A stretch of DNA of 64,000 nucleotides from Ectopseudomonas mendocina (lineage in GTDB: Bacteria; Pseudomonadota; Gammaproteobacteria; Pseudomonadales; Pseudomonadaceae). Where the stretch lies: positions 1 through 64,000 of the forward strand of contig NZ_JADTQG010000019.1 in assembly GCF_016008875.1 (NCBI RefSeq), read 5' to 3'. How positions within the stretch are numbered: position 1 is the first letter of the stretch; each line of letters starts with the position of its first letter. A program made the position numbers and the translations under genes. A model generated the notes under the pieces. The model was not told the origin of the DNA. It saw only the letters and a list, made by a program, of their open reading frames with translations, and did no database searches. This document shows, in pieces, positions 11,428 to 31,459 of this stretch.

Positions 11428-11438
11428 ACCGCCGCTCC

Positions 11439-12689: not shown

Positions 12690-13486
12690 CAGAGTTCATC
12701 CACCATTTCGCCGGAGCGCTTGCGGAACAATTGCAATGCCAAGGCACAAAGCGCCACCGAGACCAGGGTGATGGGGAGCAGCGAGCCCCAGTCGGGCCAA
12801 CGGCCATAAACGAATATGCCTTGATAAGCAGCTATTACCGGCATCATTGGATTCAGCTCAAGCACCGGGCGAACGGCTTCCGGCAAAATCGAAGCGGGAT
12901 AGACGATCGGCGTGAACCAGAACCAGAATTGCAAAAGTATGCCGGTGAACTGTCCGACGTCGCGGAAGAAGACGTTAAGCACTCCGAGAATGATGCCGAG
13001 GCCGACAGAGAAAGCCAGTTGCACCAGCAATACAGGTAGCGCTGCCAACAATACGAACCCGGGGAAAGTCTCGGTCAGCAGCAGAAAGCCGAGGAACAGC
13101 GCGAAGATGATGGCGAAGTTCACCGAGGCGTTCAGCACCACGATCAACGGCAGACAAATGCGCGGGAAACTCAATTTCTTGATCAAGTTGGCGTGCTCTA
13201 GGAACACTGACTGGCTTCGCCCAATGACCTCGGCAAAGAATCCCCAGGTAATGATGCCCGCACATAAGTAGATGCCGTATGCCAGGCTATGCGCGACGCC
13301 AGGCAGACGGGCCTGCATCACTTGCGAAAAAATCACCGTGTAGACAATGATCATCGACAACGGGTTGAGCACCGTCCACAGGGCACCTAAGAGGGAGTTT
13401 CGATAACGCGTCTGAAACTCTCTTTTGACGCTGCCCAGGACAAAACCGCGGTAACTCCAAACGGCGCGCGCCATACTCAAGGCCAT
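12689..13486 (-). CDS. wzm: ABC-2 type permease for D-rhamnan export
   Basis: The membrane subunit of the A-band exporter, 265 residues with about six hydrophobic helices. The N-terminal amphipathic block (FVLGSVKREFQTRYRNSLLGALWTVLNP, quoted in part) is the ABC-2 family entry. Two starts are possible: GTG 13489 and ATG 13486. ATG was chosen since AGGA lies seven bases before it and the length then equals that of the P. aeruginosa protein. The start overlaps the wbpW stop as TGATG. Confidence 0.93.
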   Translation of the reverse strand: MALSMARAVWSYRGFVLGSVKREFQTRYRNSLLGALWTVLNPLSMIIVYTVIFSQVMQARLPGVAHSLAYGIYLCAGIITWGFFAEVIGRSQSVFLEHANLIKKLSFPRICLPLIVVLNASVNFAIIFALFLGFLLLTETFPGFVLLAALPVLLVQLAFSVGLGIILGVLNVFFRDVGQFTGILLQFWFWFTPIVYPASILPEAVRPVLELNPMMPVIAAYQGIFVYGRWPDWGSLLPITLVSVALCALALQLFRKRSGEMVDEL

Positions 13487-14925
13487 CACTTGATCCTGCC
13501 GTACTGATCCTCGAAGCGGACAATGTCGTCCTCTCCCAGATACTCGCCGCTCTGCACTTCGATCATCACCAGCTCGATAACCCCAGGATTTTCCAAACGA
13601 TGCTTGTGCCCGGCGGGGATAAAGGTCGATTCATTGGCGCTCACCAGCCGCGGTTCGCCGCCGTTCACCACCCGGGCCATACCCTGCACGACCACCCAGT
13701 GCTCACTGCGGTGGTGGTGCATCTGTAGCGATAACGCCGCGCCCGGCTTGACCACAATGCGCTTGATCTTGAAGCGTGGCCCCTCCTCAAGTACCGTGTA
13801 GGACCCCCAGGGTCGGCTCACCGTGCGATGCAGGCGATAAGCGTCATGCTCGCTCGCCTTCAGCTGCTTGACCACCTGGCGTACATCCTGCGCGCGGTCG
13901 GCGTGAGCAATCAGCAACGCATCCGCGGTATCAATCACGATAAGGTCGTCAACCCCGACCGCCGCCACCAGCCGCTCCTCGCTCTGCACGAAGTTATTGC
14001 GACTATCGATGAACAGCGCATCCGCAGCTGCGCGATTGTTGTGCTTATCCGCCTCGACCAGTTCGCTCAGAGCGTTCCAGGAGCCGATATCGCTCCAGTC
14101 GAACGCCGCCGACACTACAGCCACTTTCTCCGAACGCTCCATCAGCGCGTAGTCGATGGAAATATCCGGTAGTTCGGCAAACAGCTCGGCATTCAGCTCC
14201 TGCAGCGACAGCTCGCCTTGTTGCAGCGCAGGGCTGGCAGCGATGCAAGCGGCGACCTGATCGAGCAATTGCGGTGCCTGTTTAGCCAGCTCGCTCAGCA
14301 GACCGCCGACGGTGAAGCAGAACATGCCGGAGTTCCACAGGAAGCGGCCACTGGCCAGATAGTGCTCGGCCGTTTGGCGATCCGGCTTTTCCACGAAGCG
14401 CACGACTCGCGCGGCACCATCGCCGGCCAGGGCTTCACCCGCCTCGATATAGCCGAAACCGGGTTCAGCGCGCGTCGGCCGAATACCGAAGGTCACCAGG
14501 TAGCCCTCGAGCGCTAAATTGGCCGCCTGCCTGGCAGCGGCGACGAACGCCTCGCTGTCGCGAATCAAATGATCGGCAGGCATAACCACCATGATTGCCT
14601 GATCGCCATGCCGCTCGCGCAGCGCCAGCGCCGCCGCGGCAATCGCAGGGGCGGTATTGCGCCCCAGCGGCTCGAGCAAATAATGAGCTCGCCGCTGCGG
14701 CAGCTTGGCCGCAGCGAATTCGTCTTTGCTCTGAAAGTAATAATCACGGTTGGTAACCGTGACCACCTCACCGCCTTCGGCCAACAGGGTGCCGGCCCTA
14801 CGATAGGTCTTGAGCAGCAGTGAATCGCCATCCGGCAGGGCCATGAACGGCTTGGGATGGCCTTCACGGGAGACTGGCCATAAACGAGTGCCGGCACCGC
14901 CGGACAGAATCACGGGGAAAAACAT
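13486..14925 (-). CDS. wbpW: Mannose-1-phosphate guanylyltransferase / mannose-6-phosphate isomerase
   Basis: A type II bifunctional enzyme of 479 residues. It isomerises fructose-6-phosphate to mannose-6-phosphate and makes GDP-mannose from mannose-1-phosphate and GTP. The N-terminal pyrophosphorylase signature LSGGAGTRLWPVS lies at about 8-20, and FVEKPDRQTAEHYL is the substrate loop. The C-terminal cupin (about 345-479) has the isomerase metal motif QMHHHRSEHW. It feeds Gmd, whose gene lies four bases upstream in the operon. It is the CPA-specific paralog of AlgA/PslB by synteny; algC, needed for mannose-1-phosphate, is not in the window. Confidence 0.94.
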   Translation of the reverse strand: MFFPVILSGGAGTRLWPVSREGHPKPFMALPDGDSLLLKTYRRAGTLLAEGGEVVTVTNRDYYFQSKDEFAAAKLPQRRAHYLLEPLGRNTAPAIAAAALALRERHGDQAIMVVMPADHLIRDSEAFVAAARQAANLALEGYLVTFGIRPTRAEPGFGYIEAGEALAGDGAARVVRFVEKPDRQTAEHYLASGRFLWNSGMFCFTVGGLLSELAKQAPQLLDQVAACIAASPALQQGELSLQELNAELFAELPDISIDYALMERSEKVAVVSAAFDWSDIGSWNALSELVEADKHNNRAAADALFIDSRNNFVQSEERLVAAVGVDDLIVIDTADALLIAHADRAQDVRQVVKQLKASEHDAYRLHRTVSRPWGSYTVLEEGPRFKIKRIVVKPGAALSLQMHHHRSEHWVVVQGMARVVNGGEPRLVSANESTFIPAGHKHRLENPGVIELVMIEVQSGEYLGEDDIVRFEDQYGRIK

Positions 14926-14929
14926 CGGC

Positions 14930-16811
<1,882 letters not shown>

Positions 16812-17301
16812 AATTCTCTCCTTGCAGAGATCTTTGCTACCTGCGGCTAAAAGCCCTGAAACCACCTTGAAAAGAAGAAAAATCGAGGTGTATTTATGGG
16901 CGATCAGCAGATTGATTACAACCACCAAATTGCATGGACCGGCATCCCGACTGCGACCTTCCAGTCACACTGCAGTACTCCACGGCACCCGATGAGGCTG
17001 GGGAACCGAATATGGGGCCGCGCAGATTCGGCCTAGCCATGAAAACGTTTGAATTTGGTTCAGCTAGCACAGAGCCTAGAAGCAAGGCGTCGAAGCTGGC
17101 TCTGGCCTTGTCGCAGGCAAGGTGAATGGAAAAGGAGTCTGGCCGCGCCGTCTGGCGGCCCCGCTAGAACAAAACAACAACGCGGACGATAGAGGGAATT
17201 TCCCGCCAATTTCATAGCCAGCTCCAATCGACAAGCTTGCCGGCTTTCTGGCAATCTCCAGCACCGCTACTCCAAAAAACAGGCTCAAGGCCGCACAAGA
17301 A
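16812..17301. other. Divergent control region between the CPA operon and the accessory island
   Basis: These 490 bases lie between rmd (leftward) and the first DUF6311 gene (rightward) and hold no supported gene; the short open frames here lack ribosome sites and family features. It must carry promoters for both units. A weak leftward candidate is TTGTAA (around 16916-16921) with CATAAA 17 bases on. I found no convincing JUMPstart/ops element. Confidence 0.5.
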
Positions 17302-19407
17302 ATGGAAATTCGCACTCAGCCACACGGCCATATCCTGCAGCGACGACTCTGGGCGGATATCCATGGCGGGTGGGCATATGCGCTGGCCTGGAGCATGGCG
17401 CTTTCGCTGGTAGCAACGCTTTATCCGCTTACGTTTTTGATGGGGCATGGCGCTTTTTTCGAAGGTGGCGATGCCAGCACCAATGTTGCGGGATGGTTGT
17501 TTTTCCGCCATGACAGCTGGCACTTCCCACTGTTGAAAACGACTGCGCTCGGTTATCCGGAAGGCACCAGCATTGCCTTCACCGACAGCATCCCGCTGCT
17601 GGCATTACCGCTCAAACTCTTCTCCCATGTTCTGCCAGAAGATTTTCATTACTTCGGTATCTGGCATGCATTGAGCTACCTGCTGCAGGCCAGCGGCGCC
17701 GTATTTCTCATCCGCAGCCTGGGTGTGCGCCACCTGCCAGGCGCTCTGCTGGCCACGGCCTTCGCGCTGTGTTGGCCCGCGTTCACCTTCCGCTTCGGCC
17801 ATACAGCGCTGATGAGCCAGGGGCTATTGCTGATTGCACTGGGCCTCTATATGCGAGGCGTAAAAGCTCCGACAACATCCCAACGCCGTTGCTTTCAACT
17901 AAGCATCCTTTCGGCCCTGGCACTGCTCATACATCCCTACTTGCTGGCGATGATCTATCCGCTGCTTCTGGTTTTCCTGCTGCATCAGTGGCGAACCCAG
18001 GCAATCAGCGTTCGCCAGGCAGCCGGCTGGGTCATCGGTTCGCTTATTGCGCTGATCGCCATACTTGTCGTTGGGGGCTACTTCATCGGCAAGGGTACTG
18101 CTGCGGGCGGTTACGGAATCTATTCACTCAACCTGCTGGCCCCTTTTTGTGGCGGATTGATCTGTGCCTTCGTTGATGGCACTGGTGGGCAGGCAGAGGG
18201 GTTCAATCACCTAGGGGCCGGCCTGCTGCCGCTGCTTCCGTTCGCCCTGATACTGGCACCGAAAGCGCTGATACCCACCATCAGCCGACACCGCTACCTG
18301 TTCCTGTTGCTGGCGCTACTGACCCTTTATGCGGTCAGCAACCGTATCTACTTGGGCAAGTGGGCGCTGGTAGACATCGATCTGCCACATCTGCTGCAGG
18401 GGGTATTCGGGATATTCCGGGTTAGTGGGCGGTTCTTCTGGCTGGTGGGTTATTGCATTCTGTTCTTCGTCCTGGCGCTGCTGCTGCGTAGGCAGAGCTT
18501 GGCCGTCCTGGGGCTTGTGGTGCTGGCTTTTGCCCTGCAATGGTTCGATACCCGCAGCCTTAGGGACAGCGTGAGAGCGCAGAGCCATCAACCATCCGCC
18601 ATTGATCTGGCCGCATGGCAGGCGGCACTGGATGATGTGCAGCAAATAGACCTCTATCCCCCTTACGGCTGCGGTACGGCGGCGACAGACGGGTACGCGC
18701 ACTATCAATACATTGCCGCCCGATCCGGCTTGCGCATCAATACGGGTTATACAGCTCGCCAGATGACGGACTGCCTGGCCAAGAGCGCTTTCGCCCGCCA
18801 GCCTGCCGAAGCGAGACACGCCTACATCTTTCTCGAGTTCGCCAGCAACCGGCTGGGTTTACCGCCGCTTTACCGGGACGCCCTCCAGGCAGGCAATTGC
18901 GCCATCGCCAACGGGCATCTGCTGTGCCGCTCAGGCCTGGATAACGTGCGCTGGGATGGCCTGGCGTCTCCGCTGCCGTACAACAGCACACAGACCTTGC
19001 GCCAGCAATGGAGTGCCGAGCAGTTACCCAGTGTCATCGGCCACCTGAAAGACGGACGTATCGTTGCACGGCAGCCAGGAACACCTGGCTATCTAAGCTT
19101 CGGACCTTACGTCAGCCTACCGGCAGGTATCTATCGCTTCCGTATCGACTATGTCAGCGATGCCGAGCCCACGACTCAGGTCGGGGAATGGGACGTAGTG
19201 GCTGAACTAAATGAACAATTCAAAGTACTGGCTACGGGCCGGACAAGCGGTAGTGCGGGACATCCGGCCGAGATCGAGGGGCTTTTCGTGCTCGAACATG
19301 ACGCAAAAAAATTGGAAATACGCCTGCATAGCAATGGTGGCGACATACAACTGGTAGCCCTGACCGTGGCGGCAGGGCATGAAACGGAGCAAACCACCGG
19401 GTACTAA
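17302..19407 (+). CDS. DUF6311-type GT-C membrane glycosyltransferase, copy 1
   Basis: A 701-residue protein with about ten to twelve membrane helices in residues 25-430, then a large outside domain. The first loop after helix 1 holds acidic residues (FFEGGDASTNVAGWLFFRHD), where GT-C enzymes that use polyprenyl-phosphate sugars place their catalytic acid. The tail (about 540-690) is a beta-rich module with PGTPGYLSFGPY, VGEWDVV and SNGGDIQLV, shared with the second DUF6311 protein at 21663-23723. A role as a GtrC-like periplasmic transferase that decorates surface polysaccharide is inferred from fold type and from GtrA/GtrB-like neighbours. The acceptor and sugar are unknown. Confidence 0.75.
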   Translation: MEIRTQPHGHILQRRLWADIHGGWAYALAWSMALSLVATLYPLTFLMGHGAFFEGGDASTNVAGWLFFRHDSWHFPLLKTTALGYPEGTSIAFTDSIPLLALPLKLFSHVLPEDFHYFGIWHALSYLLQASGAVFLIRSLGVRHLPGALLATAFALCWPAFTFRFGHTALMSQGLLLIALGLYMRGVKAPTTSQRRCFQLSILSALALLIHPYLLAMIYPLLLVFLLHQWRTQAISVRQAAGWVIGSLIALIAILVVGGYFIGKGTAAGGYGIYSLNLLAPFCGGLICAFVDGTGGQAEGFNHLGAGLLPLLPFALILAPKALIPTISRHRYLFLLLALLTLYAVSNRIYLGKWALVDIDLPHLLQGVFGIFRVSGRFFWLVGYCILFFVLALLLRRQSLAVLGLVVLAFALQWFDTRSLRDSVRAQSHQPSAIDLAAWQAALDDVQQIDLYPPYGCGTAATDGYAHYQYIAARSGLRINTGYTARQMTDCLAKSAFARQPAEARHAYIFLEFASNRLGLPPLYRDALQAGNCAIANGHLLCRSGLDNVRWDGLASPLPYNSTQTLRQQWSAEQLPSVIGHLKDGRIVARQPGTPGYLSFGPYVSLPAGIYRFRIDYVSDAEPTTQVGEWDVVAELNEQFKVLATGRTSGSAGHPAEIEGLFVLEHDAKKLEIRLHSNGGDIQLVALTVAAGHETEQTTGY

Positions 19408-19485
19408 CCCTCGCAGGCGATGGAATGCCGGCATGCTCTCGCACTCTGGACTGTAACTGACGTCATCATCCACGATGGAGTGAAC

Positions 19486-20463
19486 TTGGAAACTCAAGCC
19501 CCTCGGACAGACTCGCCCTCCAGCCTGCTGGAACTATCGCTGGTCATTCCCGTTTTCAATGAGTCAGAAACCGTTTCTCTATTCGCCGAACAGGTGCGCA
19601 AGGTATTCAGCGTGCATCCTGAAATCCGCGTGGAGATGGTGTTCGTCAACGACGGCAGCAGTGACGATACGCTCGTCAGGCTGCTCTCACTGCAACAGGC
19701 GTTTAACGGCCTGCGCATTGTCGACCTCAGTCGCAACTTTGGCAAAGAGGCTGCACTTACCGCCGGACTGCAAGCCGCGACGGGACAGGTCATCGTTCCC
19801 ATCGACGTCGACCTGCAGGATCCGCCCGAACTGATCCTGGAAATGATCGACAAGTGGCGTGACGGCTATGAAGTCGTGCTCGCCCGCCGCGTCCATCGCG
19901 GCTCCGACTCCTGGGCAAAGCGGGCCTCCGCGGGCTGGTTCTACCGGATTCACAACCGGATTGCGGAGCCGCAGATACCTGCCAATGTCGGTGATTTCAG
20001 GCTCATGGATCGTACCGTCGTCGATGCCCTGCGCAGCCTTCCCGAATCACGCCGTTTCATGAAAGGACTCTTCGCGTGGGTGGGTTTTCGCACCACTCAC
20101 ATAGACTACACCCGCCCCGAGCGTATTGCCGGCAAGACCAAGTTCAACGGTTGGCGGTTATGGAATTTCGCACTCGAGGGCATCACAAGCTTCAGCACCG
20201 CTCCCCTGCGATTTTGGACCTACCTGGGTATGCTCGTTTCGCTCTTCGCTCTGCTGTTTGCCGCCTCCATCGTCCTGAAGGTGCTGATCCACGGGGTAGA
20301 CGTTCCAGGCTATGCGTCCCTGATGGTCGCGGTGACCTTCCTCGGAGGGCTGCAGCTCATCGGCATCGGCGTGCTTGGCGAATACCTAGGCAGGACTTAT
20401 CTGGAATCCAAGAATCGCCCCGTATTTCTGGTGCGACACGTTTACGAAGCCAAGGGCGACTGA
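19486..20463 (+). CDS. Family 2 glycosyltransferase, GtrB/DPM1-like (polyprenyl-phosphate sugar synthase)
   Basis: A GT-A enzyme of 325 residues that should attach a hexose or related sugar to undecaprenyl phosphate at the cytoplasmic face. It shows LSLVIPVFNESE, FVNDGSSDDT (about 53-62) and the metal-binding DVDLQDP (107-113). Two C-terminal helices (about 240-265 and 280-305) end in the GVLGEYLGRTYLESKNRP signature of GtrB-like proteins. TTG 19486 was chosen: GGAG lies five bases upstream and the tail before the first strand is then short. ATG 19420 in the same frame would add 22 residues. It pairs with the GtrA gene 700 bases downstream. Confidence 0.82.
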   Translation: METQAPRTDSPSSLLELSLVIPVFNESETVSLFAEQVRKVFSVHPEIRVEMVFVNDGSSDDTLVRLLSLQQAFNGLRIVDLSRNFGKEAALTAGLQAATGQVIVPIDVDLQDPPELILEMIDKWRDGYEVVLARRVHRGSDSWAKRASAGWFYRIHNRIAEPQIPANVGDFRLMDRTVVDALRSLPESRRFMKGLFAWVGFRTTHIDYTRPERIAGKTKFNGWRLWNFALEGITSFSTAPLRFWTYLGMLVSLFALLFAASIVLKVLIHGVDVPGYASLMVAVTFLGGLQLIGIGVLGEYLGRTYLESKNRPVFLVRHVYEAKGD

Positions 20464-20466
20464 ACA

Positions 20467-21183
20467 ATGGATCTCAAAGAAAGCGATATTCTCGGTGATG
20501 CAATCGGCCAGCACTGGTATTACCAGTCGAAGATGAAGGCCGTCAGGCGGCTGCTCGGCAACATCCCCGCCAGACAAATACTGGACGTGGGCGCAGGCTC
20601 GGGCTTCTTTTCCCGCGGGCTTCTCGCCGAAGGTCACGCCGAGCAGGCCTGCTGCGTGGACATCAGCTATCCCGCGGACTCGGACGCCACCCATGCCGGA
20701 AAGCCCATCAGTTTCAGGATAAACATCGACCAGATCGACGCCGACCTGGTATTGCTGATGGATGTACTCGAACACGTCGACGACGACGTAGGCCTGCTTA
20801 GCGACTACGTTGCCAAGGTTCCCAGCGGGGCGCTGTTCCTGATATCGGTCCCGGCGTTCAACTTCCTGTGGAGCGGGCATGACGTATTCCTGGAGCACCG
20901 CAGACGCTACGACCTGCCCCAGATCGAACAGGTGGCGCGACGTGCTGGCTTGGAGGTCACGCTGGGCAGCTATTACTTTGGCGCTGTCTTTCCAATCGCA
21001 GCGGCCACCCGCCTAGCCGGCAGGTTGTCAGGCCAGAACCAACAGCAGCCGCGCTCTCAATTGAAAATGCATCATCCAGCTGTCAACACCGTGCTGGCAA
21101 AGCTCTCCAGCCTGGAATTACCACTGTTGCGGCACAACCGCTTAGCAGGGCTGACAGCCTTCTGCCTGGCCAGAAAGCCATGA
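20467..21183 (+). CDS. Class I SAM-dependent methyltransferase
   Basis: 238 residues with a Rossmann methyltransferase core: motif I ILDVGAGSGFFSRGLL (about 38-53), and LVLLMDVLEHVDDDVG (about 92-107) as the post-II segment. The motif DVLEHV is common in methyltransferases of cell-surface and lipid pathways. It lies three bases after the gtrB-like gene and overlaps the gtrA-like gene as ATGA, so it belongs to the lipid-linked sugar unit. It could methylate the sugar or lipid carrier before flipping; the substrate cannot be told. Confidence 0.8.
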   Translation: MDLKESDILGDAIGQHWYYQSKMKAVRRLLGNIPARQILDVGAGSGFFSRGLLAEGHAEQACCVDISYPADSDATHAGKPISFRINIDQIDADLVLLMDVLEHVDDDVGLLSDYVAKVPSGALFLISVPAFNFLWSGHDVFLEHRRRYDLPQIEQVARRAGLEVTLGSYYFGAVFPIAAATRLAGRLSGQNQQQPRSQLKMHHPAVNTVLAKLSSLELPLLRHNRLAGLTAFCLARKP

Positions 21184-21611
21184 CCAACAGGAAGCAGATG
21201 CCCGCGCGCCTGCTACGCGAGATGATCATCGCCTCGCGCTTCACCCTGGTCGGGATCACCGCCACCGGCGTCCATATACTGGTGCTCTGGTTATTGATCA
21301 GCCACGCTGGGCTATCCACATTGCTGGCAAACCTGTTTGCATTTATGACTGCGTTCGGCATCTCCTTCGCCGGCAACTACATCTGGACATTCTCCGCACC
21401 TGGCCAGCCGTACAAGGCAGTGCGTCGCTTCCTGCTGATATCCGGCACGGCCTTCGTCACCAACAGCCTGTTGCTGGCATGGCTGCTGAGCACCAAATGG
21501 CTCGCACCCATACATGCCGCACTGTTTTGCGCCGCCGCGATCCCGGCGATCACCTTTGTCGCCAGCCGGCTGTGGGGATTCAATTATTCACGACGTGCGC
21601 CAGAGAAATAG
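21180..21611 (+). CDS. GtrA family flippase-like membrane protein
   Basis: A 143-residue protein with four predicted helices (about 18-40, 45-68, 80-100, 110-130), the size and form of the GtrA family. GtrA proteins are thought to flip undecaprenyl-phosphate-linked sugars from cytoplasm to periplasm. The signature NYIWTFS follows helix 2, and F-N-Y near the end is also typical. The start overlaps the methyltransferase stop as ATGA. With the GtrB-like gene and the two DUF6311 genes it completes a three-component glycosylation module. Confidence 0.85.
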   Translation: MTNRKQMPARLLREMIIASRFTLVGITATGVHILVLWLLISHAGLSTLLANLFAFMTAFGISFAGNYIWTFSAPGQPYKAVRRFLLISGTAFVTNSLLLAWLLSTKWLAPIHAALFCAAAIPAITFVASRLWGFNYSRRAPEK

Positions 21612-21662
21612 TCGAAGGTCTCAAGAGCCCCTTTCCCACCTGACTTTTGTCGGAACATTCAA

Positions 21663-23723
21663 ATGCCCAACAGCACTCCATCTTGGCAGTCACTCTGGAT
21701 TCCAGCCACTCTGGGTGTAGTTCTTTTTATTGCCCTGGGGGGACTAAAAATCCTCGATCCGTCCAGTATCGGATGGCTCATGCGCGGCCTGCTCGATCCT
21801 CCCACCTACCAGTTAGGCTGGGAGTTCTTCCGACACACCCCCTGGATGCAGTTTCCGCTGGGTGCAAACCCCGATTACGGTATGGCCCTGGGAAGCTCTA
21901 TCGTCTTTTCCGACTCGCTGCCGTTGTTCGCCCTGCCCTTCAAGCTGCTCGATCCCTGGCTACCGGAAACCTTCCAGTACTTCGGCCTGTGGATACTCAC
22001 CTGCTTCATGTTACATGCCGTATTCGCCTACCTACTGCTTTCCCGCTTCACCGACAACAGATGGTTGCTGGTCGTTGGCACCAGCCTGCTATTGCTAATG
22101 CCGGCCTACCTCATGCGCATGACCATCCATATGGTTCTGAGCGGACAATGGTTGCTACTAGCCGGTTTCTACCTTTATTTCGCGGAGCGCTTCAGGGATC
22201 GCTTCTGGGTTGGCCTGTTGATCGTGGCGACACTGACGCATGCCTATTTTCTGGTGATGCTGGGCGCGATCTGGGCAGCCGATCTATTGCAGCGCCTACT
22301 CAAGCGTGAGCACGACATCGCCAGATGTCTGCTCCGCACCGCTGCAGGGATAGTGCCGGTCGTTGTGCTGATGTGGCTGCTCGGCTACTTCATGCTCGGC
22401 CCGTCCCCCGTAGCCCCACAGGGGTATCTGCGGATGAACCTGCTATCGTTCGTAGACTCGCGGGGTGAGTGGTCGAGGTTGCTTCCCGATCTTCAGACGG
22501 ACTTCTGGGACAGCGACGGCTTTGCCTACATGGGTGCCGGGATGCTTCTCCTGCTGGCGCTGGCACCCGTTCTGATCTGGAGGAAAACAGCACATGCCAC
22601 GCGCCGCCACAGCGCATGGCCGCTGATCTTGATGAGTCTCAGCCTGCTATTGATAGCGCTGACCAACACGGTAAATATCGGCCCTTACACCGCCGTGCAG
22701 TTCGACGTGCCCGAACTGGTCACGCGCGCCTATCAGACATTCCGCTCCCCGGGGCGGCTGTTCTGGCCAACCTACTATCTGCTCGGAGTCATCACCATCG
22801 TCTTGGTTTGTCTGCGTCTACCAGCCAGAGCAGCCCTGCCGGTGTTATCCCTCGCACTGGTGATTCAGCTCTATGACCTATCCAAGATGCTGCCGCGCAT
22901 CCACGACTACTTCACTCAAGAAACGAGTTGGCAAAGCCCGCTAGTAGCACCAATGTGGGACGAGCTTGGCGGGCGCTACCAGAAAATTCTCTATGTACTG
23001 CCGCACAACAGTGCACCACACTTCATCCTCCTCGCCGACCTGGCAAATCGTTATCGCATGGGGGTAAACATCGGTAACTTCGCCCGCGTCGATCTACGCA
23101 AGGAGAAGGAACACCAAGAAGAAATACTCGCCGCCATCAGCACCGGTCAGTTCGACCCGCAGGCAATCTACGTGTTCATGAACAATGAACTGTGGGAACA
23201 GGCCAAATCGAACATGGGTCCCGAGGACCAGGCCGGAACACTTGATGAAACGATGCTAGTACTACCCAACCTGAAAAGATGCGCAGACTGCAAGCGGCAG
23301 GGCTTTTCCGAGCGGATCTGGGGCAGCTGGCCCGCAAATCAGTTGCCTACCCTGATCGGCGATTTGCGTGACGAGCGCCTGGTCGCTCGCCCCGGCGTTG
23401 CCGGTTACCTCAGTTATGGCCCTTACACGCAGATTCCGGCCGGTCCGGTGGAGTACGCAATCACCTATGCGAGCGAAGCGACGCCAGATATCGAAGTAGG
23501 TACCTGGGATATCGTGAGCAATGCTACTGAGGCCCCGCTAGTGCTGGGCAACGGTCTCTTGAACGGGACCGCAGGCCAGCAGCGGACGTTGAGGGGGCAG
23601 ATGAACCTGAACGAAGCCAGACCGCAGAGCGAAATCCGGACGCTGAGCAACGGTGGACATGAGCTGCAACTGATACGCATCGAACTGAAGCGCGCTCCGC
23701 TATTCCAGACGACAACGCCCTGA
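21663..23723 (+). CDS. DUF6311-type GT-C membrane glycosyltransferase, copy 2
   Basis: A 686-residue paralog of the protein at 17302-19407 with the same plan: about ten to twelve helices, then an outside beta-rich tail. Shared signposts include SLPLFALPFKLLDPWLPETFQYFG in the first third, FRSPGRLFWPTYY near residue 360, and the tail blocks PGVAGYLSYGPY, VGTWDIV and LSNGGHELQL. Overall similarity looks moderate; the two are old duplicates rather than recent copies. A GGA site lies eight bases before ATG. Presumed role: second periplasmic transferase, using the same or a different acceptor. No direct evidence for substrate. Confidence 0.74.
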   Translation: MPNSTPSWQSLWIPATLGVVLFIALGGLKILDPSSIGWLMRGLLDPPTYQLGWEFFRHTPWMQFPLGANPDYGMALGSSIVFSDSLPLFALPFKLLDPWLPETFQYFGLWILTCFMLHAVFAYLLLSRFTDNRWLLVVGTSLLLLMPAYLMRMTIHMVLSGQWLLLAGFYLYFAERFRDRFWVGLLIVATLTHAYFLVMLGAIWAADLLQRLLKREHDIARCLLRTAAGIVPVVVLMWLLGYFMLGPSPVAPQGYLRMNLLSFVDSRGEWSRLLPDLQTDFWDSDGFAYMGAGMLLLLALAPVLIWRKTAHATRRHSAWPLILMSLSLLLIALTNTVNIGPYTAVQFDVPELVTRAYQTFRSPGRLFWPTYYLLGVITIVLVCLRLPARAALPVLSLALVIQLYDLSKMLPRIHDYFTQETSWQSPLVAPMWDELGGRYQKILYVLPHNSAPHFILLADLANRYRMGVNIGNFARVDLRKEKEHQEEILAAISTGQFDPQAIYVFMNNELWEQAKSNMGPEDQAGTLDETMLVLPNLKRCADCKRQGFSERIWGSWPANQLPTLIGDLRDERLVARPGVAGYLSYGPYTQIPAGPVEYAITYASEATPDIEVGTWDIVSNATEAPLVLGNGLLNGTAGQQRTLRGQMNLNEARPQSEIRTLSNGGHELQLIRIELKRAPLFQTTTP

Positions 23724-23740
23724 TCAGGACCAGAAATCTC

Positions 23741-24787
23741 ATGTTAGGTATCATGCGTTTCATTCTGGCAATTCTGGTTCTGCTTTCCCATGCGAACGGC
23801 ACAGGATTCAAGCTCAACCTCGGCGTGGCCGCCGTTATTATCTTTTACTTTATCAGCGGCTACCTGATGCAGCGCAGCTATGCCCGCTTTCTCATGCACT
23901 CCCCTACGCCGATTCGCAGCTTCTACGCAGATCGCCTACTCAAGCTCTTCCCGCAATACGCGCTCGTGGTATTGGCCAGCTTTGCTCTCATCGCCGTAAT
24001 CGGTCCCGCCCAGAACGTGTTGTTCATGGGACAGGAGCCTAGTCTCGACAAGATACTTCTCAACCTTGCCTTGCTGCCTGCGAACTACGTATTCGCCCCG
24101 TTAGTGATCGAGCAGATGCTGCCACACCCTATCGTGCCGCCGGCCTGGTCTCTGGCAGCCGAGTTCCATTTCTACCTGCTGCTGCCCATGATTTTCCTGC
24201 TGCCACGCAAAGGGCTTCTGGCATTGCTCGGTGTCTCAGCCTGCATCCAGGTCAGCGCAATGTTCTTCGCCGACGGGCCGTTTAATAGTGATAACTTCGG
24301 CTACCGCTTCATTTTCGGCGTGCTGACATTCTTTTTATTCGGTTATGCCTACAGTAAGCGCGATGATTCTTTCTTCGCACGAATGGCCCAGTTCATCTGG
24401 CTGGTCTATGCAGCACTGCTTCTGGTGGTGGCGCCTACTTTCCAAATGCTACGCCATCCACACGTCATGGAGCTGCTGCTGGGGGCGGTACTGGCCTGGC
24501 CACTGACAGCGACAGCTCTTGCCAACACTGCAACAAAGAATTGGCTTACGCAGGCCGACAATATTCTGGGGCGTCTTGCCTATCCCATATTCATCAGCCA
24601 TTTCCTGGTCTTCTACCTGTGCGAAAAACTACTCAGGCTGACCTCGACCGAGCAGCCTCTATACATACCAGCCGCAATCACGATCTGTATGCTCCTCTCC
24701 TGCGGGCTGATGTGGATGCAGAGAGGTATCGACACTTATCGCCTGCGCCGCAGAGGTTTTCGTAGCATGGCGGCACAAGCCGCCTAA
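23741..24787 (+). CDS. Acyltransferase family 3 (OafA-like, membrane-only)
   Basis: 348 residues, about ten helices, no periplasmic SGNH tail. The start LAILVLLSHANG holds the conserved His of helix 1, followed by AAVIIFYFISGYLMQRSY and a basic DRLLKLFPQY segment, all typical of acyltransferase family 3. These proteins move acetyl or other acyl groups across the membrane to sugars. It ends the plus-strand unit of the island. ATG 23741 has AGGA 10 bases upstream; ATG 23753 is an alternative. Likely O-acylates the polysaccharide made or decorated by neighbours. Confidence 0.8.
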   Translation: MLGIMRFILAILVLLSHANGTGFKLNLGVAAVIIFYFISGYLMQRSYARFLMHSPTPIRSFYADRLLKLFPQYALVVLASFALIAVIGPAQNVLFMGQEPSLDKILLNLALLPANYVFAPLVIEQMLPHPIVPPAWSLAAEFHFYLLLPMIFLLPRKGLLALLGVSACIQVSAMFFADGPFNSDNFGYRFIFGVLTFFLFGYAYSKRDDSFFARMAQFIWLVYAALLLVVAPTFQMLRHPHVMELLLGAVLAWPLTATALANTATKNWLTQADNILGRLAYPIFISHFLVFYLCEKLLRLTSTEQPLYIPAAITICMLLSCGLMWMQRGIDTYRLRRRGFRSMAAQAA

Positions 24788-24793
24788 GCGCAG

Positions 24794-25630
24794 TTAGACA
24801 ACCAAAGGCTTGCGCGCAATGATCGCCTGGCTTTTCGGCATAACGTTATCGAGCGCCTGTTTGACCTGGGCACCGCCCGGTTGCTTCAGCAGCGCTGCCC
24901 AGGTTCTGGCCCAACTGTTCAACAATGGATGATCGGGCGCAGTCAAATCTTTCTTGCAGACCCAAAAGAAAGCCCACCAAACTGCCCAGTAAAATCCGTA
25001 ATAGTTTCGTTGCTCGATAACTAAACCGGCATCCAGTACCAGTCGTTCAAAATCGTCGCGGCTGAAGACGTTGATGTGGTTGGGTTTCATGAAGTGCGCA
25101 GCGGGTGCCAACTGTTGCTGAACCCCCTCACTAGCGGCGTCTGGCACAGTCAGCAGATACATAGCTCCGGGTTTTCCCACCCGTACCAACTCGCGCATAA
25201 AGTCGGTAGGTACGTCCACGTGTTCGAGAACCTCCATGGCAATAATCTTGTCGAGATGGGCATCGGGCAGCGGCAGGGGGTTACCGTCCGTGACCAATGG
25301 ATGCAATGCCCTGGCGGGTGAATCTTGCAGTAGTCTTTCAACCGCGCTGACACGCTCAGGGTCGATATCAGCGAAGATGACTTCGGCCTTCATCTTGGCG
25401 CAGAAATGAGTGAAGGGCCCCTCGCCACAACCCACGTCCAGCACCCTGTCCTCGGGGAGAATCGGAAAACCTTTCAGCAATTCACCGGTTTCGGTATTGA
25501 ACCAGCCGCTCAGACAGGCATCGACCAAAGCGAAATCATCCGACAAGGCTTCTGCTTCAGAACCTCCAGGTTGTGCTGCAGGAATAGGGCTTGATTCGCT
25601 GAAGAATTTCTTGAAAGCGCTGAACATCAC
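24794..25630 (-). CDS. Class I SAM-dependent methyltransferase, paralog A
   Basis: 278 residues with a short N-terminal tail and a Rossmann methyltransferase core: LDVGCGEGPFTHFCAKM (motif I), FADIDPERV (acidic loop), IIAMEVLEHVDVPTDFMREL, and the distinctive PNHINVFSRDDFERLV and NYYGFYWAVWW blocks. The last two blocks recur in the gene at 26793-27683, so these are paralogs. It is the last gene of the minus-strand unit and overlaps the acyltransferase by four bases. A role in capping or methylating rhamnan sugars is suggested by similar genes next to the P. aeruginosa CPA operon; that comparison is from memory. Confidence 0.8.
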   Translation of the reverse strand: MMFSAFKKFFSESSPIPAAQPGGSEAEALSDDFALVDACLSGWFNTETGELLKGFPILPEDRVLDVGCGEGPFTHFCAKMKAEVIFADIDPERVSAVERLLQDSPARALHPLVTDGNPLPLPDAHLDKIIAMEVLEHVDVPTDFMRELVRVGKPGAMYLLTVPDAASEGVQQQLAPAAHFMKPNHINVFSRDDFERLVLDAGLVIEQRNYYGFYWAVWWAFFWVCKKDLTAPDHPLLNSWARTWAALLKQPGGAQVKQALDNVMPKSQAIIARKPLVV

Positions 25631-26796
25631 GATTCCTTGACTCGTTGACTGGCCTGACCGTCTTTCAAACTATTTTGAGCAGCGCCGCCAGTCAGGAACC
25701 GTCTGGCCACGACCGCGCCATGCCGGCGCAAGGGTGTTTCGATCAGGCGATAGTTGAGTTCGCTGCCCATAATGATCAGCGCAGCCGCTATGAATAGAAA
25801 TGGATAGAACAGCTCCTCACCGAGTGCTGAGTCAGGACTGACCCGGTGCCAGATCTCCCGTGTCGTGAAGAACGCCGGTATATGGATCAGATAGATGGCA
25901 TAGGAGCGGGTTCCGACCCACAGCAGCACCTGCCTGAAAGGATTGGTCGGCACGAACAGACGCAAGTCGTAAGAGGCCATCCAGACCAGCAAGGCCGAAA
26001 GCACCGCGAACAGGCTGAAGCGGTACGACACCACATTCAGCACTTCGGATCCCACCACGCCCATGCAGAGAAAGATGCCGGCCATCACCGCCGTGCCCAC
26101 GCCTCGCCGGCGTAGGAACTCGGGGCGCACCAGAGCGTAGCTGGCGTGCTGACTCCAGATCGCCAACAGTACGCCGAGGGCAATGGCATCGGTGCGGAAC
26201 ATCACGCTCAGCAGCGTTCGGCTCGACAGCAGTTGGACGATCACCACGGCGATCAGCACATAAGGCAGGTAGCGCCGGGTCAGCAGCGCCAGCAGGGGCA
26301 AAACCAGATAGAACTGCTCCTCCAGCGACAGGGTCCAGTAGACGAAGCTGGCACCATATTCACGACTGCCGAAGGTTTCTGCGAAGCGCAGGTTCGCCAC
26401 CTGCAGCACGCCGGCTACCGTCGCCTCGACATTTGCCCGCAAGGTGCCGAATGCTCCCGAGTCGTTGAACAGGAAGGATGCCAGCAGTATCAGCGCCAGC
26501 CAGATCCAGGCCGACGGCAGCAGGCGCCAGGCCCGACGAATCCAGAATGCAACGGTAATGCGGGTAGACATCTGTGCGTTGTCGCTGGCTTGCAATCTGG
26601 GTAACAGATCACGCGCGATGACGAAGCCGGAAATTGCAAAGAACAGGTCAACACCAAAACCGCCACCGAAATAGACACCCAGACGCGCCAGTGCCGGTGT
26701 GGTCCAGGTAAACAGGTTGCCCAGCGCATGATGTAAAACCACGAAAAGCACAGCGAACGCGCGCAGTATCTCGATATCGTCGATTCTTCTGCTCAT
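25627..26796 (-). CDS. Acyltransferase family 3 (O-acetyltransferase-like)
   Basis: 389 residues, about ten helices. Typical family 3 features: IEILRAFAVLFVVLHHALGN with the conserved His, FGVDLFFAISGFVIARDL, and SLEEQFYLVLPLLALLTR. ATG 26796 is chosen since it overlaps the stop of the preceding methyltransferase gene as ATGA; the longer open frame upstream is a shadow of that gene. It likely O-acylates a surface glycan. It sits between two paralogous methyltransferases. Confidence 0.85.
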   Translation of the reverse strand: MSRRIDDIEILRAFAVLFVVLHHALGNLFTWTTPALARLGVYFGGGFGVDLFFAISGFVIARDLLPRLQASDNAQMSTRITVAFWIRRAWRLLPSAWIWLALILLASFLFNDSGAFGTLRANVEATVAGVLQVANLRFAETFGSREYGASFVYWTLSLEEQFYLVLPLLALLTRRYLPYVLIAVVIVQLLSSRTLLSVMFRTDAIALGVLLAIWSQHASYALVRPEFLRRRGVGTAVMAGIFLCMGVVGSEVLNVVSYRFSLFAVLSALLVWMASYDLRLFVPTNPFRQVLLWVGTRSYAIYLIHIPAFFTTREIWHRVSPDSALGEELFYPFLFIAAALIIMGSELNYRLIETPLRRHGAVVARRFLTGGAAQNSLKDGQASQRVKES

Positions 26797-27683
26797 GGCT
26801 GCTGCCCCACTGACAGCGGCTTGCGTGCCAGGATGATCTGAGTCTTGGGCAACGCATCGTCCAGAGCCCGGCGAATCCTGTCTCCTCCGGGCAGGTGAAT
26901 GGTCTGGTGCCACAGTGACGCCCACTGGTCGAGCAACGGATTGAACGGTCCATGGATCTGATCATGGGTCGCCCCCTGGAACACATGGCCTTCCGCTTCC
27001 CTGGTGCCCCAGAACAACATCATCCACAGCGTCCAGTAGAAGCCATAGTACTCGCGCGATTCGATCACCAGCCCTGCGCTTTCCACCAGGTCGGCGAATG
27101 CATCTCGAGAAAAGACGTTGATATGGTTGGGCGCCTCGAAATGCACGGACGGGGCAATAACCTGCTGCAGCTCCTCGCTGCGCTGATCGGGCACCGAGAT
27201 GAAGTACTGGGCGCCAGGACGCCCCACACGCACCAATTCACGCAGGATTTCCAGGGGCTGCTCGACATGCTCGAGAACCTCTAGCGCGATGATCCTGGTG
27301 GCCAAGGCATCCGGCAAGGGCAGCGGCAGACTGTCCGATACGATGCCCTGCGATTCACGGGCTGGCGTCCGGGCAACCTGCTCACGCAACGACTCGACCT
27401 TGTCCGCCTCGCTGTCGGTGAAGATCACATGGGCGCCGCGTCGGGCGCAAAACAGCGTGCTGCCGCCATGCCCGCAGCCCAGATCCAGCACCGTATCGTC
27501 CGCGCTGATGGCAAAGCCACGAAACAGCTCATCGGTCCCGTTCTGAAACCAGCCGCCCATTACGGCATCGACCAGACCACAATCCCGAGAGCCGACGCTG
27601 CACACCGCTGCTTCGGCCGGATTGACCGCGGATTCCGGTTCAGGACGGGACATGCCCCGCCACCATTCACGCAAGGCTCGCAC
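26793..27683 (-). CDS. Class I SAM-dependent methyltransferase, paralog B
   Basis: 296 residues. Motif I is LDLGCGHGGSTLFCAR, the acidic loop FTDSEADKV, followed by RIIALEVLEHVEQPLEILREL. The PNHINVFSRDAFADLV and EYYGFYWTLWMM blocks match paralog A at 24794-25630. GTG 27683 is used as start: GGAGG lies nine bases before it. ATG 27653 is the alternative. The start overlaps the upstream glycosyltransferase by 17 bases. Probably methylates a sugar of the same glycan. Confidence 0.8.
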   Translation of the reverse strand: MRALREWWRGMSRPEPESAVNPAEAAVCSVGSRDCGLVDAVMGGWFQNGTDELFRGFAISADDTVLDLGCGHGGSTLFCARRGAHVIFTDSEADKVESLREQVARTPARESQGIVSDSLPLPLPDALATRIIALEVLEHVEQPLEILRELVRVGRPGAQYFISVPDQRSEELQQVIAPSVHFEAPNHINVFSRDAFADLVESAGLVIESREYYGFYWTLWMMLFWGTREAEGHVFQGATHDQIHGPFNPLLDQWASLWHQTIHLPGGDRIRRALDDALPKTQIILARKPLSVGQQP

Positions 27684-29232
27684 GCGCTACCGCCTCCTCA
27701 CTCAGCAGTGCCTGAATTCGCCCTCGGGCAACCTCTCGCGAGCAGTGCCCACGCATACGCTCGACCGCACTGGTCGCCATACGCTGGTAGCGCTCAGGAT
27801 CGGTCGTTATGCACTGGTAGGCGTTCAGGTAGGCATCTCGCAAGGAGGCCCAGTCGATCTGATGACGCCGGGTGCGGTAAGCCAGGCGCGGGTCATGCGA
27901 CCAGGCCGTGAAGTCGAGCCAGCTATCGACCACGAATGCGACCTGCTCGTCGATGTAATCCAGCATCGCCGAATGCCGCGGAGCGACTGCAGGCTTGCCG
28001 CAGGAAAGAAACTCCATCAACGGCAGGCACTGCCCTTCTCCGTGAGAAGCGTTGACTGCGTAGGCACTGGCCTGGACCAGCGCTTCGAAGTCTTCGCCGT
28101 CCAGATAACCATGCAGCAGCACGATGCGGCACTGGAATCTGGGCATGCGCGCCATCCAGATCAGCATGTCGTGCATGGCGGACAGGTATTCATGATGCCC
28201 CAGCTTGAATACCAGGGTCGCATCCGGAACGTCACGGAAAGCGGCGCAGAAGGCCGTAAGCATGTCGGCCCAGTTCTTGCGCCCGTCATAAGGATTGAAC
28301 AGGGCCGTGAAGATCACTCCGGACAGCTGGACCTCGCATTCACCCGGTTGCCAGTCCGGCATCTTCGGTGTGAGGCCTTTTTCCTCCGGCTGCGGGGGCT
28401 CGACCATATTGCGCGGCTCGAGCGGCTTGTCACCATCCTGTACCACTATCTCCAGCGGCGCACCGTCAGGCTTGGGCAACATGGGCAGAAGAGGCTGTAG
28501 CACCTTGAGATACCACTCGCCGAGATAACGCCGGGTAATGCGGTAGCGTGATTGCCCAACGCTTTCCGTTGGTACGGTTACCGCCGAGCTGGCCCGTGCA
28601 CGTGCAGCCGCTCCCTCATGCTCGCGAATGGCCTGCACCACGCGCGCGGTCGCGGCGCTGCCGAATATATGAGGGGCCAGCGCAGGGTCTCGCGTGTCGA
28701 CCACGACCCCCGACGCCATCTTGATCGTCACGCTGTCATTGGGAAGTTGCCCGGCCCACTTCTGCCGGAACGCAGCAAACTTGTCCCAAACGGGTGAAGG
28801 TACGGAAATGATCGGAAAACCGTCGCCCAGCTCCCGGCGTACGGCATCGACGATCATCCGTGAATGGGTGATGCCCTGACCGCACTGTCGCAAAACGTGA
28901 CGCCAGTCCTGTTGAGGCTCATCCAGCCATGATTCGCTGGGAATACTGTCAAACTCCCAGGCAAACACCGGAATTGTGGGGCAACGCAACCGGGTTAGCG
29001 TCTTGTGCGGAGGCGAGAACGAAAGGAACACACAGCGCTCGCTAGCGGCGCGAGCCGCTTCATACAGCGGATCGACTTGCCGCTCGGGTTCGTCCACGAC
29101 CACGATCTCGCCCAGCGTCTGCAGGACAGGCAAGAAGTCGCGCAATACGAAGTAGTAACTGTACTCGGGAAGCCCCATGCTGCTGGCGATCCTGGCAGCG
29201 GTGACCTGGGAATAGACCAGAATCTTCATCAC
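27667..29232 (-). CDS. GT-B glycosyltransferase (family 4-like), large paralog A
   Basis: 521 residues. The N-terminus (MMKILVYSQVTAARIASSMG) and the block LPEYSYYFVLRDFLPVL are shared with the next gene. The donor half carries FTALFNPYDGRKNWADML, FKLGHHEYLS, VLLHGYLDGEDFEALV and HGEGQCLPLMEFLSCGKP, an E-x7-E type nucleotide-sugar site. About 100 residues between (about 200-300) are less ordered and Pro-rich. ATG overlaps the stop of the upstream paralog as ATGA. It should extend or cap the glycan in the cytoplasm; the sugar is unknown. Confidence 0.78.
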   Translation of the reverse strand: MMKILVYSQVTAARIASSMGLPEYSYYFVLRDFLPVLQTLGEIVVVDEPERQVDPLYEAARAASERCVFLSFSPPHKTLTRLRCPTIPVFAWEFDSIPSESWLDEPQQDWRHVLRQCGQGITHSRMIVDAVRRELGDGFPIISVPSPVWDKFAAFRQKWAGQLPNDSVTIKMASGVVVDTRDPALAPHIFGSAATARVVQAIREHEGAAARARASSAVTVPTESVGQSRYRITRRYLGEWYLKVLQPLLPMLPKPDGAPLEIVVQDGDKPLEPRNMVEPPQPEEKGLTPKMPDWQPGECEVQLSGVIFTALFNPYDGRKNWADMLTAFCAAFRDVPDATLVFKLGHHEYLSAMHDMLIWMARMPRFQCRIVLLHGYLDGEDFEALVQASAYAVNASHGEGQCLPLMEFLSCGKPAVAPRHSAMLDYIDEQVAFVVDSWLDFTAWSHDPRLAYRTRRHQIDWASLRDAYLNAYQCITTDPERYQRMATSAVERMRGHCSREVARGRIQALLSEEAVARASLA

Positions 29233-31330: not shown

Positions 31331-31459
31331 TTGCCTCGCGTGGCTGCTGACCGCCGCGCCGCCGCCCCGTAAACTACGACGACTTCCACCCTGCCAGCGG
31401 AACCGCGCTGGCAGCGGTACGTCCAATTGTCCGTCCTGCAGTTCTCGGAGCCATCTGTC

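Follow-up and report, generated by a model that had tools for sequence, protein, structure and literature searches.

The 64,000-nucleotide stretch of Ectopseudomonas mendocina DNA analysed here (the window) carries six genes in one plus-strand run, in the order D1, gtrB, MT, gtrA, D2 and AT, and the ORF list and Pfam confirmed all six reading frames of the initial annotation at their coordinates. D1 (17302–19407) and D2 (21663–23723) are DUF6311 proteins, matching Pfam PF19830 at 87 and 271 bits, both above the curated cut-off of 27 bits. gtrB (19486–20463; PF00535, Glycos_transf_2) encodes a polyprenyl-phosphate glycosyltransferase whose proposed GtrB-like nature is borne out by a score of 373 bits to the solved GtrB sll0501 (5ekp); its start is the TTG at 19486 in that annotation and the ATG at 19420 in the mechanical ORF list. 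MT (20467–21183; PF13489, Methyltransf_23) is a SAM-dependent methyltransferase that would act on a lipid-linked or nucleotide sugar, gtrA (21180–21611; PF04138, GtrA_DPMS_TM, 69 bits) encodes a small membrane protein and putative flippase, and AT (23741–24787; PF01757, Acyl_transf_3) is an acyltransferase that would O-acylate the side chain or the backbone. The intergenic gaps of +78, +3, −4, +51 and +17 nt (with gtrB starting at 19486) are operon-like, the negative value being the 4-nt overlap of MT and gtrA. A promoter and terminator scan yielded nothing usable, its counts being close to the shuffled level. Against NCBIfam, D1, D2, gtrA and AT had no match, and the other genes scanned had none that exceeded the cut-off.

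This run sits between two minus-strand gene groups. To its left lies a D-rhamnan (CPA-type) cluster (7809–16928), the putative source of the acceptor, comprising glycosyltransferase genes, wzt, wzm, a wbpW-type gene, gmd and rmd. Pfam assigned seven of its eight ORFs; the third glycosyltransferase gene (7809–8933) was assigned from position only. The Pfam families are those of a CPA/D-rhamnan ABC-transporter locus (rmd, gmd, GDP-mannose pyrophosphorylase, Wzm and Wzt with Wzt_C, together with two GT4 genes), upholding the D-rhamnan context first proposed for the locus, where the name rmd comes from family and gene order and D-rhamnan is the predicted product. To the right, Pfam identified a block of methyltransferase, acyltransferase, methyltransferase and two glycosyltransferase genes (24794–30722). 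This block did not appear in the initial annotation; its make-up is presumably that of PA5455–PA5459, a likeness of composition only.

The six genes form an exchangeable cassette. Alignment by blastn with a relative (G299, locus L209) showed 85% identity over 12692–16652 and 77% over 24807–30696, with no match between 16652 and 24807 at an E value of 1e-5; within these collinear flanks, the relative carries a different cassette at this position. The cassette ends, 16653 and 24806 on the plus strand, are thus where the alignment stops rather than exact junctions, and the cassette as delimited here takes in the 5′ end of the annotated rmd ORF on one side and, on the other, the 3′ end of the right-hand methyltransferase gene. 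Five other genomes, among them those of P. nitroreducens TX1 and H. pertucinogena, also carry the five-gene block D1–gtrB–MT–gtrA–D2, all with rmd/gmd and the methyltransferase/acyltransferase/glycosyltransferase block near; there, the five-gene block lies beyond the flanking block, not between that block and rmd. Because the five-gene block recurs and the insert is bounded by collinear flanks, the six-gene arrangement is not a product of chance.

We analysed the catalytic part of the DUF6311 proteins by structure prediction on D2 (model pLDDT 89.2). Foldseek of residues 1–540 against the PDB returned AftD at an E value of 1.1e-7, and also EmbA and AftA, with low global TM-scores (0.40 for AftD); structural comparison matched Pmt4 (Z 17.0, 4.3 Å, 352 residues) and also STT3, DPY19 and ArnT. 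The DUF6311 profile found nothing meaningful among PDB sequences, and the fold therefore rests on the model. D2 is thus a predicted GT-C enzyme, in line with the GtrC-like reading given to these proteins initially, and D1, as a homologue of D2, is assigned to GT-C through that homology only. Residues that do not vary across 36 aligned D1/D2 rows include D45, D84, R152 and R365 (D2 numbering). DUF6311 is not named in any paper of the literature searched, from which most subscription journals were absent.

Both proteins end in a CBM-like β-sandwich (CTD), at 19003–19404 in D1 (profile match 157 bits) and 23322–23720 in D2 (model pLDDT 90.4; Foldseek CBM4/6/16/36). The two copies are 43% identical over 129 positions, and the D2 CTD model matches many CBMs at Z 11–12.7 (best 12.7), giving it the fold of the CBM superfamily (CBM6/16/35/36-like β-sandwich), which also occurs in non-CBM proteins. 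The catalytic part of D2 is nearer to the proteins of the stand-alone operon described below than to D1, yet its CTD matches that of D1. The same CTD occurs at this locus on sequence-unrelated GT-C-like proteins in four genomes with arabinofuranose-donor (DprE) genes, and in all, at least four catalytic parts that show no clear relation in sequence carry it: when the CTD-bearing groups were compared, the lowest E value was 0.083 (for a set of seven; the L263 profile consisted of the query and one further sequence). A relative of the L235 type that has no CTD (L217) matched D1 at an E value of 0.0055 with 4 bits, and comparison of the DUF6311 and L235 profiles gave 6% probability and an E value of 0.006; a deep common GT-C origin is therefore possible. 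Three findings led us to reject the CTD as a tail native to the DUF6311 family: stand-alone DUF6311 proteins, where compared, end in a different tail (in a comparison that leaves out the L034 sequences, where the automatic domain split was misplaced), the CTD profile misses the stand-alone genomes, and other GT-C-like proteins carry the domain. The new observation is that one CTD is common to D1, D2 and unrelated transferases at the same locus in other genomes.

The CTD was found in at least 14 of 398 family genomes by a profile search that scored the best 10–12 candidates per genome, so it may have passed over weak relatives. A CTD protein shares a fetched region of no more than 20 kb with homologues of gmd and rmd in 12 of these genomes, which are not independent because some CTD genomes are close relatives. 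Ten of these have strong Rmd and Gmd scores; two (G169 and G250) have weak ones, with Rmd at only about 130 bits, and may therefore not be D-rhamnose clusters. Two genomes do not fit: G306, and G342, which has a rhamnan-type Wzm without rmd/gmd in the fetched region and its CTD protein far away beside DprE1/E2. A second CTD protein of G318 lies away from the locus, and L179, L181 and L288 carry the CTD with no rmd/gmd nearby. The tie of the CBM-like domain to rmd/gmd loci supports the proposed action of the GT-C enzymes on D-rhamnan.

Other contents of this site were surveyed in 69 loci chosen by Wzm identity of at least 59%. Among the 63 of D-rhamnan type, 45 have none of the cassette types counted, a figure that includes a contig end of 3.3 kb where no cassette could have been seen (L285) and a locus with another membrane protein of this site (L257). 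L265 has gtrB/DUF6311 with rmd/gmd not above threshold and stands outside the 63. Nine of these 63 other genomes have homologues of DprE1 and/or DprE2 at this site, and AT homologues stand beside GT-C-like genes at this locus in L223, L230, L235, L261 and L263.

The gtrB–MT–gtrA–DUF6311 arrangement also exists as a conserved operon in many Pseudomonas, usually with a single DUF6311 gene. gtrB–MT–gtrA was present in 21 of 26 fetched DUF6311 regions of the genus sample, with gtrB and a weak gtrA match in three more, and in 54 of 80 named DUF6311 loci, in that order; exceptions in order are a DUF6311 gene between MT and gtrA (L185) and a membrane protein between gtrB and MT (L275). All three genes are missing from 21 named loci, 19 of them outside Pseudomonas. 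In the regions read gene by gene, with names assigned by eye, the stand-alone operon is usually away from O-antigen genes, and nearly all loci listed have no rmd/gmd match. The initial annotation therefore stands in part. Its Gtr-type families, GT-C prediction and gtrA/gtrB neighbours hold, DUF6311 genes in Pseudomonas being mostly accompanied by gtrA and gtrB; the finding that would have refuted it, DUF6311 mostly apart from such neighbours, did not turn up in this genus. The view of MT as an exceptional insertion peculiar to this window is rejected: a widespread operon regularly has MT as its second gene.

From gene content, conservation, predicted folds, domain sharing and cassette exchange, all observed, we infer the reactions themselves, together with donor sugar, acceptor and binding, as follows. 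GtrB would transfer a hexose from a nucleotide sugar to undecaprenyl phosphate; MT would methylate the sugar on the cytoplasmic side, most likely as the lipid-linked sugar; and GtrA would move the methylated lipid-linked sugar across the membrane. D1 and D2, as GT-C enzymes with a common donor, would, in the periplasm, attach it to the D-rhamnan that Wzm/Wzt exports; the two enzymes would probably either use separate acceptor positions or act one after the other. The acyltransferase would add an acyl group. The CTD of both enzymes would bind D-rhamnan, and it is this proposed binding that would point D1 and D2 to that polymer; D-rhamnan is not the general DUF6311 acceptor, as the family operates with other tails at stand-alone loci. 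The best explanation, and in our judgement a probable one, is that the cassette glycosylates the D-rhamnan of the adjoining cluster outside the cytoplasm, as a Gtr-type system to which a methyltransferase has been added. Counting against it are the CTD genomes that do not fit or score weakly, the partial loss of MT in G265, the different position of the block in the other five genomes, the 45 D-rhamnan-type loci with none of the cassettes counted, the low TM-scores for D2 and the dispensable CBM of GT136. We further infer that the CTD is a D-rhamnan-binding address tag on exchangeable transferases. The fullest form of the proposal is more tentative, and we would rate it a little short of an even bet: the CTD would be an undescribed D-rhamnan-specific CBM that directs any fused GT-C to D-rhamnan regardless of donor, be it methylated hexose from GtrB or arabinofuranose from DprE, therefore making the D-rhamnan locus a plug-and-play diversification site, and the gtrB–MT–gtrA unit would belong to a four-component system flipping an already methylated sugar.

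The step most exposed to an alternative is methylation. MT may instead act on a nucleotide sugar, or on D-rhamnan before export as the methyltransferases of the flanking block may, and we regard this as a serious minority possibility: two more methyltransferases lie in that block, no close solved relative of MT fixes its substrate, the gene order has the two exceptions noted above, and one of the six block genomes (G265) has lost about 100 residues of MT to an in-frame internal deletion, with the remainder of the block intact. Against it, the order gtrB–MT–gtrA is kept in the 54 named loci, most without D-rhamnan genes near, and MT overlaps gtrA here. It is rather unlikely that the CTD is a structural β-sandwich of the GT-C protein with no sugar-binding role. 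The jelly-roll fold does match modules other than CBMs, Eph receptors and Cry proteins among them, but this domain is common to catalytic parts without clear sequence relation at one locus type, and another GT-C CBM is reported to bind its own O-polysaccharide (PMC11127046).

Still less do we favour a different acceptor (core, another O-polysaccharide, exopolysaccharide or protein), with the cassette adjoining D-rhamnan genes only since the region collects envelope genes. The setting of the related stand-alone operon and the three CTD loci without nearby rmd/gmd would suit such an acceptor; however, the stand-alone proteins compared have a different tail, the CTD profile does not match the stand-alone-operon genomes of the family sample, and in 12 of 14 genomes gmd and rmd have CTD proteins close by, of types unrelated to one another. 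That one DUF6311 protein is redundant or inactive, its second copy reflecting paralogue drift, seems to us improbable. Single-DUF6311 operons are the usual form and D2 of one block genome (G322) is split over two frames, but six genomes from three genera retain both proteins, in order and each with a CTD to itself. D1 of the other block genomes is 48–55% identical to that of the window, D45, D84, R152 and R365 are conserved in the D1 sequences aligned, and D2 is 51 and 56% identical in the two named species, P. nitroreducens TX1 and H. pertucinogena. The D-rhamnan-directed system remains our preferred reading.

If it is correct, a share of relatives decorates CPA, described as a D-rhamnose homopolymer (PMC5297154), with exchangeable side chains, altering the surface met by phages, tailocins and immune systems. 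In one tailocin screen of three Pseudomonas strains, though, no CPA-cluster gene passed the criteria (PMC8319346), and a further tailocin paper has no bearing on the module (PMC9213528). DUF6311 gains a predicted fold and a testable role; the CTD, small and suited to expression on its own, lends itself to a D-rhamnan binding test by a method already in print for a GT-C CBM; and a prediction of the model is that GtrA-type systems are able to flip sugars already carrying an O-methyl group. Searches for a mobile origin covered D2 and MT. For D2, the 50,697 phage records contained no match, viral contigs gave a single one at 28% identity, and three plasmid records matched at 27–33% identity; for MT, no match was confirmed in viral contigs. 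A phage origin found no support for D2 and MT, a phage or plasmid origin was rejected on these results, and the cassette was not classed as a phage gtr cassette.

No published title or abstract describing the module (gtrA, methyltransferase, GT-C, CBM, rhamnan) was found in a search with most subscription journals outside it, and four known systems come close. One is formed by the blocks PA5455–PA5459 and fuzVWXYZ (PMC6804347, PMC5297154, PMC8719888). PA5455–PA5459 consists of five genes, transferase genes among them, beside the CPA cluster; the right flank here resembles it by gene composition only, and that flank has no GT-C or GtrA/GtrB gene. The stand-alone Pseudomonas operon has the same four genes in the same order, but as a rule one DUF6311, a different tail in those compared (in L034 with a weak DUF7024 match below cut-off) and, in nearly all cases, no D1; AT was not found beside it in the loci listed. 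Pentofuranose three-component systems with GT136 (Citrobacter youngae O1/O2) are alike, by description, in having a GT-C with a C-terminal CBM. According to the accessible text of PMC11127046, that CBM binds the unmodified O-polysaccharide, an ABC-transporter-dependent rhamnose/mannose backbone, and was dispensable for activity under the conditions tested; the donor is made by PPPRS from PRPP, in contrast to the GtrB-type enzyme here, and that text mentions no methyltransferase in the side-chain system, in contrast to MT here. None of the six cassette genes matches the Pfam families UbiA or FAD_binding_4, sought for PPPRS/DprE-type donor genes, and the cassette was not classed as a pentofuranose system. 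The closest parallel in components is GtrA/GtrB/Gtr(type) O-antigen glucosylation in Shigella, Salmonella and Escherichia, with a galactose version in Klebsiella that, according to PMC11127046, acts on an ABC-transporter-dependent O-polysaccharide. The cassette matches it in its GtrB-like synthase, its GtrA-like membrane protein and its GT-C fold, modelled for D2 and through homology for D1. Set against the classical system, only the cassette described here has a methyltransferase between gtrB and gtrA, two DUF6311 transferases and a CBM-like domain common to both.

An open reading frame check confirmed the six initially annotated genes, all on the plus strand: a DUF6311 gene (D1, 17302–19407), gtrB (19486–20463, or from 19420), a methyltransferase gene (MT, 20467–21183), gtrA (21180–21611), a second DUF6311 gene (D2, 21663–23723) and an acyltransferase gene (AT, 23741–24787). 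They are nearly contiguous, with gaps of +78, +3, −4, +51 and +17 nt when gtrB starts at 19486, and minus-strand genes border the run on either side. Pfam assigns, in order, DUF6311, Glycos_transf_2, Methyltransf_23, GtrA_DPMS_TM, DUF6311 and Acyl_transf_3. It also identifies the left flank in this 5.13-Mb genome as a D-rhamnan-type ABC-transporter cluster (GT4 genes, Wzt with Wzt_C, Wzm, GDP-mannose pyrophosphorylase, Gmd and Rmd) and the right flank as methyltransferase–acyltransferase–methyltransferase–GT–GT. The putative labels wbpW, rmd and PA5455–9-like are backed by family and order, and the right flank has the probable gene-by-gene make-up of PA5455–PA5459. That five-gene block adjoins the CPA cluster (PMC6804347, PMC5297154). 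Sequence at 31059–31786, at and before the start of a DUF7844/Lnb_N gene, matches two places in the corresponding region of genome G299 (L209) and several in another region (L210), in a repeat-like manner.

The predicted structure of D2, built from an alignment of 36 rows (mean pLDDT 89.2, pTM 0.79), points to a GT-C enzyme. Top Foldseek matches in the PDB were the GT-C enzymes AftD (E 1.1e-7, with a TM-score of only 0.40), EmbA, AftA and AglB. VIA-align placed Pmt4 best (Z 17.0, 4.3 Å over 352 residues), followed by STT3, DPY19, AftD, PglB, AftA, ALG12/ALG9, AglB and ArnT, down to Z 11.6, although helix arrangement alone can yield middling Z-scores. Among the best 50 structural matches, every one spanning D2 residues 1–540 is a GT-C enzyme by title or complex. 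The 36 rows agree without exception at several positions, D45, D84, R152 and R365 among them; D45 follows the first helix, which is where the catalytic acid of GT-C enzymes sits.

A methyltransferase inside the unit had been considered exceptional in the initial annotation, and proved instead to be a general feature of the operon type. DUF6311 is present in 26 of 149 genus-sample genomes, including that of the window, and the other 25 provided 26 regions for examination. The order gtrB–MT–gtrA–DUF6311 occurs in 21 of these; three (L050–L052) combine DUF6311 and gtrB with a weak gtrA match (22–36 bits) but without MT, inside clusters with wzm and wzt; one (L040) holds DUF6311 alone; and at L053, where the DUF6311 match is below the cut-off, none of the operon genes was found. 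Gene-by-gene listings of eight loci place the four-gene operon outside any O-antigen cluster, its neighbours, judged by eye, being LysR-type regulators and various others. A wider collection scan took 80 of 120 confirmed DUF6311 loci into the counts. In 54 of the 80, gtrB, MT and gtrA all lie within 4 kb and share the strand, and without exception their order is gtrB–MT–gtrA. The remainder comprise three with gtrB only, one with MT and gtrB (weak scores), one with MT only and 21 with none of the three, 19 of them outside Pseudomonas. MT between gtrB and gtrA is thus regular on both counts. In the phylum sample, 3 of the 318 genomes other than that of the window yield an MT match at E 1e-25; all three belong to other families, and in each gtrB lies a few genes away at most. 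Three operons (L046, L066 and L185) have two D2-type DUF6311 genes; transferase doubling seems to have occurred more than once. At a locus of Pseudomonas chlororaphis EA105 (L072), MT aligns by its end only and the DUF6311 gene downstream is intact, a pattern like that left by a deletion.

The block D1–gtrB–MT–gtrA–D2 was found in six genomes of three genera: the window, P. nitroreducens TX1 (L106), Halopseudomonas pertucinogena (L056), G284, G322 and G265. It lies near rmd–gmd and a methyltransferase/acyltransferase/GT block in all six, and between the two in the window only. In G265, the MT lacks ~100 internal residues through an in-frame deletion. In G322 (region L168, 5985–8188), D2 is broken across two overlapping frames by a frameshift or sequencing error. 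Among the six, a window-like AT adjoins D2 in the window only; AT homologues adjoin other GT-C-like genes at the same locus in five other genomes (L223, L230, L235, L261 and L263).

Relatives of the locus were chosen by Wzm identity of at least 59%, and the rmd-side region was taken from all 69 such genomes besides the window; 63 regions hold rmd and/or gmd. Five of the 63 contain gtrB/DUF6311, nine DprE1 and/or DprE2 homologues, two a YfhO-type protein and two a GT-C-like protein with AT only, and none of these cassette types was found in the other 45. Pfam backs the query proteins as DprE1-like (FAD_binding_4), DprE2-like (adh_short), UbiA and YfhO. G299, which shares 96% identity with the window in Wzm, is collinear with it at 85% DNA identity over 12692–16652 and 77% over 24807–30696; the intervening 8.15 kb in the window and 6.3 kb in G299 share no alignable DNA. 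At this position L209 (4114–10164) encodes a GT2, a phosphodiesterase-like protein (below cut-off), a YfhO-type protein and one further open reading frame. A similar YfhO-type protein occurs at L284, and the methyltransferase/acyltransferase/GT block, relative to rmd, runs in the opposite direction to that of the window at L225, L227–L229, L231 and further loci up to L280.

D1 and D2 share a C-terminal domain (CTD; 19003–19404 and 23322–23720). Modelled by itself from six sequences (pLDDT 90.4), it resembles CBM4, 6, 16, 35 and 36 domains by Foldseek and VIA-align (Z up to 12.7 at 2.4 Å), a jelly roll that both also matched in non-CBM proteins. The CTDs are 43% identical over 129 positions and the catalytic parts 32% over 364. 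The catalytic part of D2 is closer to the stand-alone operon protein of L060 (38% over 517 positions, score 875 versus 369 for D1), whose tail does not match that of D2 (32 versus 258 for D1); the L046 stand-alone protein repeats the pattern (catalytic 847, tail 29). Because its catalytic part is nearer L060 and L046 and its CTD nearer D1, the two portions of D2 differ in origin.

A profile of 17 CTDs, at E 1e-4, detected the domain in 14 of 398 family genomes, counting that of the window, and weakly in 1 of 318 phylum-sample genomes besides it. For 12 of the 14, the region fetched around a CTD protein, 20 kb at most, contains homologues of gmd and rmd as well, with strong scores in ten (G000, G149, G166, G194, G258, G265, G274, G284, G318 and G322) and weaker CTD, Gmd and Rmd scores in G169 and G250; G342 and G306 are the exceptions, and in G318 a further CTD copy lies away from this region. 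Of the nine DprE loci, four (L218, L219, L235 and L263) carry the CTD on a GT-C-like protein. The catalytic parts joined to it form at least four groups (DUF6311, the L235 type, the second L263 protein and the L181 type) whose sequences show no clear kinship (lowest pairwise E 0.083 in a set of seven; at most 6% probability in profile comparison with DUF6311), although a deep common GT-C origin is possible. In G342 (region L181, 9478–14785), distant from the Wzm cluster, a CTD-bearing GT-C-like protein adjoins DprE2-, DprE1- and UbiA-type homologues; this unit looks like a stand-alone arabinofuranose-type system. GT-C-like proteins with weak CTD relatives occur at L286, L287 and L288; the first two loci are ABC-transporter clusters that contain gmd together with weak rmd homologues, and DprE or Gtr donor genes were not recognised in them.

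Of the original reading, Gtr-type tailoring of the neighbouring D-rhamnan, what stands is a Gtr-type system with GT-C enzymes (by the D2 model) beside D-rhamnan genes; the supposed peculiarity of the MT does not. The CBM-like domain common to dissimilar GT-C-like proteins at D-rhamnan loci is an added finding, and the one worth testing. By analogy with three-component systems, GtrB would load a sugar, the MT would methylate it before flipping by GtrA, and D1 and D2 would transfer it to D-rhamnan held through their CTDs. Methylation would be set in the cytoplasm, since the MT shows no stretch hydrophobic enough for a transmembrane segment (top 19-residue mean 1.37) and is encoded by a gene coupled to both gtrB and gtrA. 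Among such systems as described, a Klebsiella case targets an ABC-transporter-dependent O-polysaccharide, arabinofuranose donors involve DprE1/E2, and the CBM of a GT-C enzyme (GT136) binds unmodified O-polysaccharide and is dispensable under the conditions tested (PMC11127046).
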